A stretch of 53,740 nt of DNA from an uncultured Rubrobacteraceae bacterium (GTDB lineage Bacteria; Actinomycetota; Rubrobacteria; Rubrobacterales; Rubrobacteraceae), in assembly GCA_902806065.1 (NCBI GenBank), contig CADCVE010000006.1, forward strand, positions 1 to 53,740. Direction: 5' to 3'. The notes below the pieces were generated by a model, which saw only the letters and a program-made list of their open reading frames with translations, did no database searches and was not told the DNA's origin. Below are positions 393-5,085 of this stretch, piece by piece. A program made the position numbers and the translations under genes. The stretch's first letter is position 1. Each line of letters begins with the position of its first letter.

Positions 393-1546
393 GCGTCCAC
401 CTCCTCACCCACGGACCTCGCCAGATACTCGCGCCCCTTCGCCAGAAACTCCTCCGCGAAGCCCGCCTCCAACTCTCCGCGCTCCCGCCGTGCCGCGACG
501 AACGACGCGAACTCCTCCTCCAAAGCGCCGAACACCGCCGAGACCGGCCCATCCCCGTTCATATCCTCCGGACGCTCCTCCGGGTGCACCTCCAGGCTGA
601 AGTTCAGGCAGCGGCGCTGCAAGTCGCGCAGCAGCGCCCGGTCTATACCGCTCGCCACCCCGCGCCGCACGTCGTACGCGCGCAGGCGCACTATCGCGTC
701 GTCGAGGTCTACCCCTTCGATCCGCTCCCGGATAGCCTCCGTCAACTCCGGGGCGTCCATGTCTCTTGCCCTTATCTTTTCGAGGTCCAGCATCGGGCGC
801 GTGTCTATCGGGATGTGCTCCACGCTCGACAGATCCCCGCCCTCGAACTCCACGATGGCGAACCCCGGCACCGAGGCGACCTCTCCAAAGCCGAAGCGTT
901 CGGTGGCGCCGGCATAGAAGGCGTTTGGCTTGTGCTCGTGGAACTCGTGGTAGTGGCCGAGGGCGACGTAATCGAAGGCGCCGGAGATCATGCTGGACTG
1001 CAAGTCCGCCTCGCCCATCTCGTGTTGCTTCGCCTCCAGCCCCGGCACCATCCCGTGTGTCACCAGAATATTCACGTCCGCGTCACGAGCGGGGGTAACC
1101 GCTCCCGTCCCGAAGACCGCCCCGTGCGGCACCAGCGTAACGCCCACGCCTACGTCCCCGACCTCGATCAACTCGTAGTCAAGATCGAAGCCGTGCGCGG
1201 AGATCACGTTGACCAGGTTCCCATACTCCAGCGCCGCCGTAGTGGTACGCAGACGTGGCGTCTCGTGGTTGCCAGCGGCGACGAGGTAAGGGATACCGGC
1301 GCGCGCCGTGATGCGGGCTGTCTGCTTCAGGAAGCCGATGATCACGTGCGTCGCCGGGCGCACCGAGTCGAAGACGTCGCCGGAGTGGATCACCAGATCC
1401 ACGTCCCGCTCCAGGATGGCGTCAACCGCTCGTCCATACGCCTCCTGCACATCGACCTCGCGCTGGTTGCGGTTGGACGTTGGGTCGAGCTTGGCGTACC
1501 GGGTGTATCCCAAATGTGTATCCGAGATGTGCGCGATCCTGATTAT
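389..1546 (-). CDS. sbcD: SbcD/Mre11-like DNA repair exonuclease
   Basis: Mn-dependent metallophosphoesterase nuclease that trims DNA ends with SbcC. The phosphoesterase motifs appear in order: HISDTH, SGDVFD, AGNHE, a VTHG segment and GHYH. The C-terminal third is the capping and SbcC-interaction region. The first ordinary start codon, TTG at 1513, lies inside the first motif (the Leu after DTH) and would delete the metal-binding Asp and His. The frame continues upstream as I-I-R-I-A-H-I-S-D-T-H until an in-frame TGA at about 1561-1559. The only start-like codons there are ATA at 1546 or ATC at 1543, with an AAAGGGA Shine-Dalgarno-like run just ahead. I extend to 1546 for that reason. A sequence error or a degraded 5' end are alternatives. 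Confidence 0.85.
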   Translation of the reverse strand: MIRIAHISDTHLGYTRYAKLDPTSNRNQREVDVQEAYGRAVDAILERDVDLVIHSGDVFDSVRPATHVIIGFLKQTARITARAGIPYLVAAGNHETPRLRTTTAALEYGNLVNVISAHGFDLDYELIEVGDVGVGVTLVPHGAVFGTGAVTPARDADVNILVTHGMVPGLEAKQHEMGEADLQSSMISGAFDYVALGHYHEFHEHKPNAFYAGATERFGFGEVASVPGFAIVEFEGGDLSSVEHIPIDTRPMLDLEKIRARDMDAPELTEAIRERIEGVDLDDAIVRLRAYDVRRGVASGIDRALLRDLQRRCLNFSLEVHPEERPEDMNGDGPVSAVFGALEEEFASFVAARRERGELEAGFAEEFLAKGREYLARSVGEEVDA

Positions 1547-1709
1547 CTTATCCCTTTCTCAAATCAACAGTATTGTACGCATACCGCCGATCTTATGAGG
1601 GCCCTGGATGTGTATTTTCGGGACTCTCACAACTTCAATTCTCGTCGTGTCTCGTTTGGCTACATAATCGGACCAGTCTACGATTCACGGTAGTTGCCGG
1701 TCCATTGCC

Positions 1710-2300
1710 TTACTGCCTGTTCTCGAACTCCTGCTCAAACAGAGGGTTGGGCATATCTTCAAGTCGCCTAACAATTTCTTCGAGGAAGCGTCCTGTAGTT
1801 CTTAGTTCCTCTTCCGAAGGCGTCTCAACGCCATGCACTACTTGATTCCTAATTTGTCGGATGTAATTGATCTCCTCACTAAGGGGTTCCGGTACGTCGA
1901 GGCGCTGCAACAGACGCACGATAGAAGACCACCTTTGAGGTGCGCCAGTAGTAAGTTGCTCCTTTTCTGATTTTCGCCGTAGGGTAGATTCTAGAGTGGC
2001 CCAGCGGGACATAAAGAATCCAAGTGCCTCTTCATGTCCTCGTGACCTTACTGCTTCCTCCGCTGACGCGTAAGGATTGCGCGTACTTACTTGGCGACGT
2101 GCTTGCGCATACTTCTCGTATAATTTCTCATCCCCGGCGACTATACTGTCAACAATTTGGTCTACTAGTGGGCGTTCCTCCGTGTCATTGTCAAGGTTTT
2201 CGAGATACGGATCTAGCTCTCTAGGACTGTCCTTGGAAATGAGCTGTAGAAAACGCAACAGAACGTCTGCCCGTCCCATTACAAATTCTCTAGCCTTCAT
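1710..2300 (-). CDS. HEPN-type protein, partner of the RelA/SpoT-like gene
   Basis: A 196-residue, mostly helical, charged protein with no signal peptide or membrane segment. Near the C terminus it has the sequence IRQIRNQVVHG, giving R151-N-x3-H156. This is the R-N-x(3)-H signature of HEPN domains, many of which are RNases in toxin-antitoxin, abortive-infection and CRISPR-linked systems. The start overlaps the last 11 bases of the upstream RelA/SpoT-like gene, so the two are co-translated. Base composition is visibly AT-richer than the SbcD and HerA genes on either side, which suggests later acquisition. HEPN membership is inferred from this motif and the helical character. Catalytic activity and a toxin role are not shown. 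Confidence 0.6.
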   Translation of the reverse strand: MKAREFVMGRADVLLRFLQLISKDSPRELDPYLENLDNDTEERPLVDQIVDSIVAGDEKLYEKYAQARRQVSTRNPYASAEEAVRSRGHEEALGFFMSRWATLESTLRRKSEKEQLTTGAPQRWSSIVRLLQRLDVPEPLSEEINYIRQIRNQVVHGVETPSEEELRTTGRFLEEIVRRLEDMPNPLFEQEFENRQ

Positions 2301-3006
2301 TAGAAACCTTTCCGAATATGTAGCTAGCTAACTCGTAATGGTTCCTAAGCTTGCCTTCTTTAAGCCGAAGTCGTAGATCTCCAGCTTTCTGCAAACGTTC
2401 CAACGCTATCTCTCCTGCAAGCACAAGGCCATTGAGTTCATCTAAGATGGCGTACTCTTCGCTCGATAAATCCCCACTCATAGGTTTGTAGGCCAAATCG
2501 TGTTCAACTTCAGCCCAAGCGTGAACAAGTACAGAAGCTACTTGAACTTCAACTAAAGCACTCGCATAGCGAGTGTCCGTGCCTTCAAGATCAGCAGATT
2601 TTAGCCGAACATGGTAGTGGCGGGCCGCGTAGCCAGAGAACCGTTTCTCATAAGACGGCTCGTTGCTCTCATCAGGAAACATTTTAGTCTTGCTAACATC
2701 AAACGAACCGCGAATCAATCGCTCGACTTCATCAAGATCACCAGGAAAGTACAAAGCTATTCTGACGCCCGCCAGATCAACGATATCATCGTATATATTT
2801 TTTACCTTTCGGTACTTCTTCTCTTCATTCCTCTGATGTACTTTTGTCTTGAGACGATCTGGCCTCTTAGCTCTGTAAGACACGATTGCTCTGATTCCAC
2901 TCTGATCCAGTTCCGCAGAGCATCTCTGCTCACGTATCTGCGCGGCCTTCCGATAGTAATCGTACTCCCGAGAGTACTGTACGAGGAATGTGTCGATTAC
3001 AGTCAT
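2290..3006 (-). CDS. RelA/SpoT-type nucleotidyltransferase domain protein
   Basis: A 238-residue single-domain protein of the RelA/SpoT synthetase fold, which transfers pyrophosphate from ATP to a nucleotide acceptor ((p)ppGpp or a relative, or to tRNA in some toxic members). Visible family features are RAKRPDRL near residue 45, D77-x-AG-x-R82, GYAARHYHV at 125-133, and E153-x-Q155 followed by HAWAEVEHD at 162-170. There is no HD hydrolase, TGS or ACT domain, so it is a small stand-alone type. It overlaps the HEPN gene by 11 bases and shares that gene's AT-rich composition. The pair resembles an alarmone-linked toxin-antitoxin or defence module. Which nucleotide it makes cannot be read from the sequence. 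Confidence 0.75.
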   Translation of the reverse strand: MTVIDTFLVQYSREYDYYRKAAQIREQRCSAELDQSGIRAIVSYRAKRPDRLKTKVHQRNEEKKYRKVKNIYDDIVDLAGVRIALYFPGDLDEVERLIRGSFDVSKTKMFPDESNEPSYEKRFSGYAARHYHVRLKSADLEGTDTRYASALVEVQVASVLVHAWAEVEHDLAYKPMSGDLSSEEYAILDELNGLVLAGEIALERLQKAGDLRLRLKEGKLRNHYELASYIFGKVSNEG

Positions 3007-3027
3007 ATAGAGGACGAAGCTGCAGTC

Positions 3028-5085
3028 CTAGTCCCTCATCCGATCTAGCCCGGAGAGTATCTGCGAGGGCTCGCGCCTCCTGGCTACCGGCCGGTTGCCG
3101 CGAGTGAGGTTCCAGCGGAAGTTCTTGTAAGGGTCGGCGGCGCCGTGGCCCGTGCGGTGTGATGCCTGTACGGCGTCGAGGGCTTCGAAGACTTTCTCTG
3201 GTGGAACGCCCTCTATGTCACCGCGGATGGCGGTTATCTTCGGCGGCTTGCTGGTGAGGTTGCGCATCACAGAGAGGACGGAGGTAGCCGCGTCCTGGCG
3301 GTGCTCGCCGAAGATGTCCGTGCCCTGCTTGCCCATGAGGACCATCGGACGTGGGAAGGTTCCGAAGACTGGAACGGCGTAGTGCGCGTGGCGGCAGAGC
3401 AGACGCCCTTTCTCTAGCTGCAGTAGCTCCTCGCGGGTGGTCGAGGAGAACGAGCGGTAGCTGGAGTTGGTGAGTTCCTCGTCCCCGATGCGACCGTAGA
3501 GGCTCGTCGCCGCGTTGCCGACGACCTCGTCGTGTACTTTGCTCCGGAATTGCTGCGCCCCGAAGAGCGTCAGGTTCAGGTGGCGACCGCGCGCGGAGAT
3601 GTCCACCAGCGTGTCCTTGAGGGAGGAGGTCTTCGAGCCTGACGGCGCGTACTTGTTCAGCTCGTCGACGAAGATTATGAGCTTGTCCACCCCGAGTTGG
3701 CCGCTCTCGGCGAGCTCCCATATCTTGGAGATAACGCTCGTGACGATGAGGTCCTGCGGGATGCCGGTGAGTTGAGAGATGTCTACTACACGCACCTCGC
3801 GGTCGTCGAACGGGCCGTCCACGAGTGGCAGATCGCCGTGATCTACTTTCCCGTGCGCGAGCAGCCCGCCGCACTTGTTCGGGAGCACCTTGAAGCGGTT
3901 TCTGACCTTGGCGATGGTCATGTGGTTGTGGCCGTTCCACGACGAGATGTTCTTGCCGTCCTCGCGGGCAGCCTCGAAGTAGTCGTCGATCTCGTCCAGG
4001 AGGCCGTAGAAGTCCGCCTGTGTCCTGACACCCTTGTCTCGAAGCTCCTCGATAAAGCCCCGGAACTTGTCGTCCATGTCCGAGGGATCGAAGACGTAGC
4101 CCGCATACGGAAGTACGTCGCCGAGCTCCCACAGGATCGGGTAGACGCGCGAGTCCTCGCCGCGCGCGTTCCGTAACGTGTTTAGCTTACGCGCCGGGAT
4201 GCCCTCTGCATGCACGGTCCTCTCTCCAGACTCCATCCCGTACCGCAACGGGGCGAAGATGCGAAGGTTCTCGAAAGGCTGCACCTCCAGCCCTAACGAA
4301 GCGTACATCTCGCGGTCCTCACGCGGCAGGCCCTTCTGCCCCGCACGCTGGTAACGCTCTGCGAGCTCCGGGTCGTCGTCCGGGTCCACCTCCACCGGCT
4401 TGTCCAGGAACAGCAGGTCCGCACCCTTTACGTTGAACATCAGGGCCGCGACCTTCTTGTCCTCGACGGTCTGGAAGGTGCTGGAGATGGTGAACAGGGC
4501 GTGACTGGTCTTGGTCGAGAGGCCGCTCATGCCGGTGATGTTGAGGTGGCCGGCCTCGGGACCGAGGAGGTAGTCCCCGTCCACATAGAGGGGCGTGCGC
4601 TGTGGTGAGCCGTTCTCCTCATTGCCGTTCTCGTGCAGGAGGAGGGGGATGCGGTGGCCGGAGAAGTCCTCCGTGCCCAGGGCGTGCTCTATAGCGGGGC
4701 TGGTGGCGAAGTATACGGGGCCGGTGCGGACGGGGCGTTTGGACTTCTTCTTGTCGTCGCGGTGCTTCGTGGCGAGGACGCGGGCCTTGAAGACCAGGAT
4801 CTCGACGCGCTCCGAGAGGGCTTCGAGGGACGGGTCACCGTCATAAGCGTAGAAGTCATCGAGGAAGCTGGCTAGGTCGGAGTAACGGCGCGGGTCGTCG
4901 AGGACGGCGATGGCGGTCGCGTCCTCCGCCTCGGCGGCGACGATGTGCCCGATGTCCAGGTTCCGGGCTGCTCCGGTCTCGGCGGTCCAGAAGTAGAACT
5001 CGTGGGCCGTCGCGGGGTACTCCTCGCTGGTGACGACCCGGCCGATAGGGCCGGAGGTGAGATCCAGGTATTCCGGGTGCAGCAT
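3028..5085 (-). CDS. herA: HerA-like DNA translocase ATPase
   Basis: A 685-residue hexameric DNA-pumping ATPase of the HerA/FtsK class (DUF87-like), expected to feed DNA to the NurA nuclease. The N-terminal ~130 residues fit a HAS-barrel. The P-loop near residues 184-194 reads GMSGLSTKTS, a variant where Thr replaces the Gly before Lys. I recall this variant from other bacterial DUF87 proteins. Walker B is LIIFVDELNKYAP in the C-terminal third, followed by a sensor/arginine-finger region (SARGRHLNLTLFGAQQ). It starts one base from the end of the NurA-like gene, forming one operon with it. The RelA/SpoT-like start lies 21 bases after its stop. Confidence 0.85.
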   Translation of the reverse strand: MLHPEYLDLTSGPIGRVVTSEEYPATAHEFYFWTAETGAARNLDIGHIVAAEAEDATAIAVLDDPRRYSDLASFLDDFYAYDGDPSLEALSERVEILVFKARVLATKHRDDKKKSKRPVRTGPVYFATSPAIEHALGTEDFSGHRIPLLLHENGNEENGSPQRTPLYVDGDYLLGPEAGHLNITGMSGLSTKTSHALFTISSTFQTVEDKKVAALMFNVKGADLLFLDKPVEVDPDDDPELAERYQRAGQKGLPREDREMYASLGLEVQPFENLRIFAPLRYGMESGERTVHAEGIPARKLNTLRNARGEDSRVYPILWELGDVLPYAGYVFDPSDMDDKFRGFIEELRDKGVRTQADFYGLLDEIDDYFEAAREDGKNISSWNGHNHMTIAKVRNRFKVLPNKCGGLLAHGKVDHGDLPLVDGPFDDREVRVVDISQLTGIPQDLIVTSVISKIWELAESGQLGVDKLIIFVDELNKYAPSGSKTSSLKDTLVDISARGRHLNLTLFGAQQFRSKVHDEVVGNAATSLYGRIGDEELTNSSYRSFSSTTREELLQLEKGRLLCRHAHYAVPVFGTFPRPMVLMGKQGTDIFGEHRQDAATSVLSVMRNLTSKPPKITAIRGDIEGVPPEKVFEALDAVQASHRTGHGAADPYKNFRWNLTRGNRPVARRREPSQILSGLDRMRD

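Follow-up and report, generated by a model that had tools for sequence, protein, structure and literature searches.

A RelA/SpoT-type synthetase encoded with a HEPN-fold partner: the split form of a usually fused protein and a candidate toxSAS-like module

The stretch of DNA analyzed here (the window) comprises 53,740 nucleotides from an uncultured actinomycete of the family Rubrobacteraceae and encodes a RelA/SpoT-type synthetase together with a partner that combines a helical linker with a predicted HEPN domain. Judged by sequence comparison, this pair corresponds, in split form, to a single fused chain made elsewhere. We tentatively propose, with a probability of about 0.48, that it constitutes a toxin-antitoxin (TA) or anti-phage module of the toxSAS kind, similar to CapRel, in which the synthetase would be the toxin and the partner both its neutralizer and its sensor. 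The features on which the analysis draws are collected in Table 1.

Table 1. Features of the window (positions in the window) and genes at the equivalent herA-mre11 junction of related loci
Feature	Location	Strand	Basis or context
RelA/SpoT-type synthetase (toxSYNTH-like) gene	2290-3006	minus	238 aa; PF04607 match
Partner gene (helical linker + HEPN)	1710-2300	minus	196 aa; predicted model, profile, motif
Stop/start overlap of synthetase and HEPN genes	2290-2300	minus	11 nt; sequence
HerA-like ATPase gene, site border	3028-5085	minus	weak PADLOC mad8 match, no Pfam match
Mre11/SbcD-type nuclease gene, other site border	389-1513	minus	PF00149 and NCBIfam Mre11 models
Approximate cargo interval, herA end to conserved DNA before mre11	1556-3027	.	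blastn against relatives
AbiV	L107		herA-mre11 junction
Type II methyltransferase + nuclease	L111		herA-mre11 junction
PIN	L110, L113		herA-mre11 junction
DUF433 or DUF433-DUF5615	L109, L110, L114, L126		herA-mre11 junction
ParE-like	L115, L125		herA-mre11 junction
ASCH	L117, L119, L124		herA-mre11 junction
Lipoate-ligase	L122 (scanned), L123 (by similarity)		herA-mre11 junction

Compared with the synthetase gene, the HEPN gene is read in the +1 frame, and a ribosome-binding-like GGAAAGG is found 6 nt 5' of the ATG of the HEPN gene. The two overlapping ORFs of the original prediction were recovered with all of their motifs, namely, D77-AG-R82, E153-x-Q155, and HAWAEVEHD in the synthetase and R151-N-x3-H156 in the HEPN protein. 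Its remark that the pair is AT rich also holds: the GC content is 47.6%, compared with 62.8% for the window, and is the lowest (rank 1) of 525 segments of the same length, while the GC3 of the pair is ~0.46, compared with 0.78 to 0.86 in four flanking genes. A chance origin of the pair is excluded because a scan of genome contigs recovered relatives of the window synthetase with 43 to 60% identity in several phyla.

That scan, performed with the window synthetase, yielded 109 relatives, 80 of which were kept. We define the family as 60 loci (L005 to L064; E ≤ 8e-53); 20 distant loci (L065 to L084; E of 7e-18 or worse) were excluded from it, four of them being used as a tree outgroup. L026 was left out of all counts because its record ends inside the gene, and the 60 rows counted are 59 relatives plus the window. 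Since the search patterns were derived from the window synthetase, members far from it are undersampled. A single ORF encodes the synthetase and HEPN parts in all genome relatives with a complete HEPN-like C terminus (45 of 45) and in all HEPN-bearing relatives from IMG/VR (6 of 6); thus, the pairing is conserved in other genomes, as one protein, and the window is the sole split case among these relatives. Between the flanking conserved positions, the fused relatives have 18 to 23 residues; the corresponding interval in the window measures 55 nt, one base more than 18 codons, and the split and fused forms are therefore a single-base change apart. Because it is unique to the window, the split could be a lesion, which also weighs against the toxSAS interpretation, and there is a sizeable chance, somewhat short of even, that the window copy is a fused gene interrupted by a single frameshift, of natural origin or introduced during assembly, rather than an evolved two-gene module. 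The unsplit state of every one of these relatives, a spacing within their range, and an assembly in 112 contigs favor such a break. However, no conserved residue is missing from either half, the break falls in a short variable interdomain linker and outside any long homopolymer, and the downstream half begins with an ATG preceded by the GGAAAGG noted above. One product of the split is the synthetase alone, and the other contains the YxxY motif with the HEPN domain, from which we infer that the split point would correspond to the boundary between toxin and antitoxin in toxSAS systems with two genes.

The window synthetase matches the Pfam RelA_SpoT model (PF04607) with 51.2 bits (cutoff, 27). 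Eleven residues (R45, K47, K55, R59, D77, R82, Y126, H130, E153, Q155, and H169) are invariant in 60/60 rows, and the domain thus has the intact ATP and Mg sites by which toxSAS enzymes are recognized. In the model of the fused relative L006 (40 sequences; pLDDT, 85.0), the N-terminal part matches RelP, RelQ, and CapRel structures. By profile, the nearest solved sequences are those of the housekeeping enzymes RelP/RelQ (E of 5.5e-11), with CapRel reaching only an E of 0.15, a ranking that speaks against the toxSAS interpretation. Among the 19 His-positive fused rows, the mean pairwise identity is 53% for the synthetase, 31% for the linker, and 26% for the HEPN domain. This gradient resembles that of CapRel: in the accessible text of PMC9712102, the C-terminal region of CapRel is the least conserved one and acts as both antitoxin and phage sensor.

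The partner comprises a helical linker (residues ~1 to 75, including Y61-E-K-Y64) and a HEPN domain (residues ~80 to 190). Its Pfam matches are subthreshold (HEPN_RiboL-PSP, E of 0.001; DUF4145 and Csm6-HEPN, 0.018). The predicted model (pLDDT, 84.4) is all helical, and HEPN/HepT structures align best with it, over residues ~80 to 190. In VIA-align, HEPN, HepT, or AbiA entries occupy 11 of the top 13 rows, with Z of 6.9 to 8.8, values that helical bundles can reach by arrangement alone, without kinship; a Foldseek search with the same model gave no match at E ≤ 0.001. The best PDB profile match of the partner is the HEPN toxin 7ae9 (E of 0.026), and R151/H156 in the window conform to the R-x4-6-H pattern. 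Because fold rank, R-x4-H motif, and the 7ae9 match agree, we assign residues ~80 to 190 to the HEPN fold on the basis of the predicted structure, as had originally been proposed. Two alignments were used. In A1, which covers 40 of the 45 complete HEPN-bearing relatives and served for structure and identity counts, the catalytic Arg is kept in 40/40 rows. A2 holds His-positive rows only, and its invariant His is therefore so by construction.

In this family, a fixed core is combined with a variable C terminus. The C terminus is a HEPN domain with R-x4-H in 20 of the 60 rows, the window included; a HEPN-like domain without the His in 26 (24 with Tyr or Phe, 1 with Asn, and 1 with Arg); TPR repeats in 8 (by Pfam for L013 only, the other 7 being grouped by length and similarity); and nothing beyond the linker in 6. 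Hence, the catalytic His is retained in 20/46 HEPN-bearing genome rows. A synthetase-domain tree, built by a quick method and with many weak branches, implies at least 7 changes among C-terminal states, with His-positive rows dispersed over several phyla. The persistence of an invariant synthetase through these exchanges argues for the toxSAS interpretation. It also bears on a second reading, modeled on HEPN/MNT systems, in which the HEPN domain is an RNase toxin and the RelA/SpoT protein counteracts it as antitoxin, by modification or binding. The HEPN fold, the intact R-x4-H in the window and in 6/6 HEPN-bearing IMG/VR copies, the retention of the His in scattered, mobile-looking copies, and the inclusion of both RelA/SpoT and MNT in the Pol-β superfamily, according to the accessible part of the literature, are all consistent with it. 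However, because the synthetase residues are invariant even where the His has been lost (26/60) or the HEPN domain is absent (14/60), the synthetase has a function independent of HEPN activity. Moreover, the HepT motif that carries the modified Tyr is RX4HXY, and HepT mutants Y109F and Y104A are named in the titles of VIA-align entries; the Tyr at H+2, the HepT residue modified by MntA, occurs in 0/24 rows of the present family. The place of a minimal nucleotidyltransferase is taken by a RelA_SpoT domain, which showed no MNT-family match in Pfam, PADLOC, or NCBIfam. We therefore abandoned HEPN/MNT-type modification as the leading idea and regard this reading as unlikely. Of the original interpretation, the association of the two proteins, the HEPN fold, and the defense or TA setting stand, whereas the suggestion that the synthetase neutralizes the HEPN protein by nucleotide modification is not supported. 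By analogy with CapRel, it is more likely that the toxin and antitoxin roles are the reverse of those first suggested.

The loss of the His follows the genomic setting. Neighboring genes common to other family loci are found at 25/26 His-lost loci, compared with 6/19 His-positive ones, and a malic enzyme is among the neighbors shared by His-lost loci (Pfam match, L058). This difference in neighbor sharing suggests that loss of the His has occurred mainly in lineages with apparent vertical inheritance of the gene, and its retention in those where the gene seems to be mobile. In the mostly His-lost clade L035 to L061, the His is replaced by Tyr or Phe, the Arg is kept, and the chromosomal neighbors are conserved; the His-lost chromosomal copies are possibly domesticated forms. 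Such loci, together with the proximity to RelP/RelQ, would accord with an alarmone synthetase that serves a housekeeping function and uses its C-terminal domain for regulation only, a description that may fit the Bacillota copies. As an account of the window pair this is improbable, since the window copy has the HEPN His, a very low GC content, and a variable site, its subfamily is absent from 38 other genomes of the same bacterial family, and its genome already encodes a long Rel of its own.

Further evidence for the toxSAS interpretation comes from the linker. A YxxY motif precedes the HEPN domain in the linker (Y61-E-K-Y64 in the window) and is found in 44/60 rows, with YxxF/W in 5 more; it is present in 7/8 TPR forms and 0/6 short forms. 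YxxY is the neutralizing motif of both CapRel and ATfaRel2: the accessible texts describe it as blocking the adenine site in CapRel (PMC9712102) and as the neutralizing motif of ATfaRel2 (PMC11782079, PMC11559606). Against this, neither YxxY nor YxxF/W occurs in 11/60 rows, which include the 6 short ones and the Bacteroidota L016 and L062, and among the HEPN-bearing IMG/VR copies, a clear YxxY is limited to L127 and L128, L129 having YMVF. L174 (genome G862), a fused His-positive form from a 1.2-Mb genome in the phylum of Asanoa, is apparently very close to the Bacteroidota L016, reflecting either a recent transfer or contamination.

Upstream of the pair are genes for a HerA-like ATPase and a NurA-like protein, neither with a Pfam match and both named from their neighborhood, and downstream is the Mre11-type nuclease gene. 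The herA stop codon is the edge of the site, with DNA similarity to relatives resuming at 3028 (blastn); most blastn matches on the other side end ~20 to 50 nt from mre11. Of 20 stretches upstream of mre11 from the same bacterial family (L107 to L126), 17 hold both herA and mre11; the junction is empty (100 to 132 nt) in 3 of these and occupied in 14. Nine occupied junctions contain AbiV, type II restriction-modification (RM), PIN, DUF433/DUF5615 (which we take to be TA genes), or ParE-like genes, and the remaining five contain ASCH or lipoate-ligase genes. On this comparative evidence, this bacterial family has a variable insertion site in the herA-mre11 spacer (1513 to 3028 in the window), and the AbiV, RM, and TA-type genes of this site, along with the prophage copies described below, bear out the defense or TA setting first proposed and favor the toxSAS interpretation. 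A direct-repeat search for target-site scars between 1400 and 3200 gave nothing convincing. In L109, the cargo includes a partial second 3' end of herA (3499 to 3548 versus 4090 to 4258; 50 nt, 90% identical to that of the window), a pattern suggestive of cargo acquisition through recombination at this end of herA.

The window is the sole carrier of the subfamily among 39 genomes of its bacterial family, with one further genome (G173) showing a distant RelA/SpoT match of 34% identity. In two phylum samples, each counted without the genome on which it was centered, full-length relatives were found in 0/397 (centered on G396) and 1/394 (centered on G402) further genomes. In IMG/VR, 19 of 21 loci are close relatives. 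Six are HEPN bearing, two of them identical in sequence, and all six have the His. Neighbors were resolved for L127 and L129 to L132, not L128: L130 and L131 are flanked by genes for tail-fibre assembly and for a tail sheath, L132 adjoins a tail sheath gene, L127 precedes a tape-measure gene, and L129 follows a tail protein gene. This location in prophage tail modules, with the His uniformly retained, is consistent with a toxSAS system; nevertheless, R-x4-H in mobile forms suggests an effector function of the HEPN domain itself, for which a role solely as antitoxin would not account. Seven other copies (L133 to L138 and L144) have a different C terminus of ~200 aa with no Pfam match and share integrase-type and repressor-type neighbors (families identified in L144 and L138, one each). 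The accessible part of a published survey describes a prophage defense hotspot between cI and the integrase of a P2-related phage. Six more (L139 to L143 and L145) lie in large contigs with the synthetase after other domains (InPase in L139), a domain order reminiscent of phage polyvalent proteins. Among INPHARED phages, neither the HEPN protein nor the L144 protein had a match, and the L006 fusion gave one weak partial match. Among plasmids, both parts were found only in Azospirillum argentinense NZ_CP007794.1, where the partner match stops 9 nt short of the synthetase match.

Under the toxSAS interpretation, the RelA/SpoT-type protein would be the effector, a pyrophosphate transferase whose most likely substrates would be the 3' ends of tRNA or adenine nucleotides. 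The partner, with its YxxY helical linker and HEPN domain, would bind the synthetase, hold its activity off, and sense a phage or stress trigger, like the C-terminal half of CapRel; in mobile forms, the HEPN domain with R-x4-H probably adds RNase activity. The relatives would then be single autoinhibited chains and the window version two cotranslated proteins from a site that collects defense and TA genes. Alternatively, though we consider it rather unlikely, the family might be a self-contained two-enzyme immune protein in which a triggered synthetase produces a 3'-pyrophosphorylated nucleotide or tRNA while also controlling the HEPN RNase in cis, with a fixed core and exchangeable HEPN, TPR, or other readers; in domesticated versions, the change of His to Tyr or Phe would leave only alarmone synthesis.

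Partners known for toxSAS enzymes include pseudo-zinc-finger and Panacea-type domains. The original prediction knew of no described system that pairs a synthetase with a HEPN protein, and we found none in the open-access literature searched; CapRel was the fused case found. No account of a RelA/SpoT-HEPN fusion was found there, including in the accessible text of PMC10440598, PMC3153485, PMC9122126, PMC9712102, PMC11559606, PMC11782079, PMC3710099, PMC8832971, PMC5512222, and PMC13092281, and in PMC3710099, a survey of HEPN proteins, the terms SpoT, ppGpp, and alarmone occur 0 times in the main text.

HepT-MntA systems resemble the pair in placing a relative of the Pol-β-type transferases beside a HEPN domain with R-x4-H; they differ in that the transferase here is of the RelA/SpoT type, the H+2 Tyr is lacking, and the transferase outlives the HEPN active site. 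RelP and RelQ share the catalytic domain of the window synthetase and are its closest solved sequences but are single-domain proteins, as small synthetases generally are in the accessible part of an early RSH survey, without a HEPN or TPR C terminus. FaRel2/ATfaRel2 and PhRel2, as far as described in the accessible parts of PMC11782079 and PMC11559606, are bicistronic like the window and share the R-x-K ... K ... D ATP site; ATfaRel2 also resembles the window partner in its YxxY. They differ in the fold and size of the partner. CapRel (e.g., CapRel-SJ46), according to the accessible text of PMC9712102, shares with the family an N-terminal RelA/SpoT synthetase, a least conserved C-terminal half, a usual one-chain form with some two-gene versions, carriage by prophages, and YxxY, which most members here possess. 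It is a fusion in most cases, but in Actinobacteria the unfused form predominates, in line with a split pair in an actinomycete. It differs in that its C terminus is a pseudo-zinc-finger, in place of a helical linker with HEPN, TPR, other, or no domains, and the profile match between CapRel and the present family is just E 0.15. If the proposed reading is true, the joining of a synthetase core to HEPN, TPR, or other C termini, in a family found in prophages and at a herA-mre11 variable site, would widen the modes of control of alarmone-synthetase toxins and would unite in one protein two activities directed against translation, the pyrophosphorylation of tRNA and the cleavage of RNA; the recurrent change of His to Tyr or Phe in chromosomal copies would then provide a natural comparison between a mobile weapon and its apparently domesticated forms.
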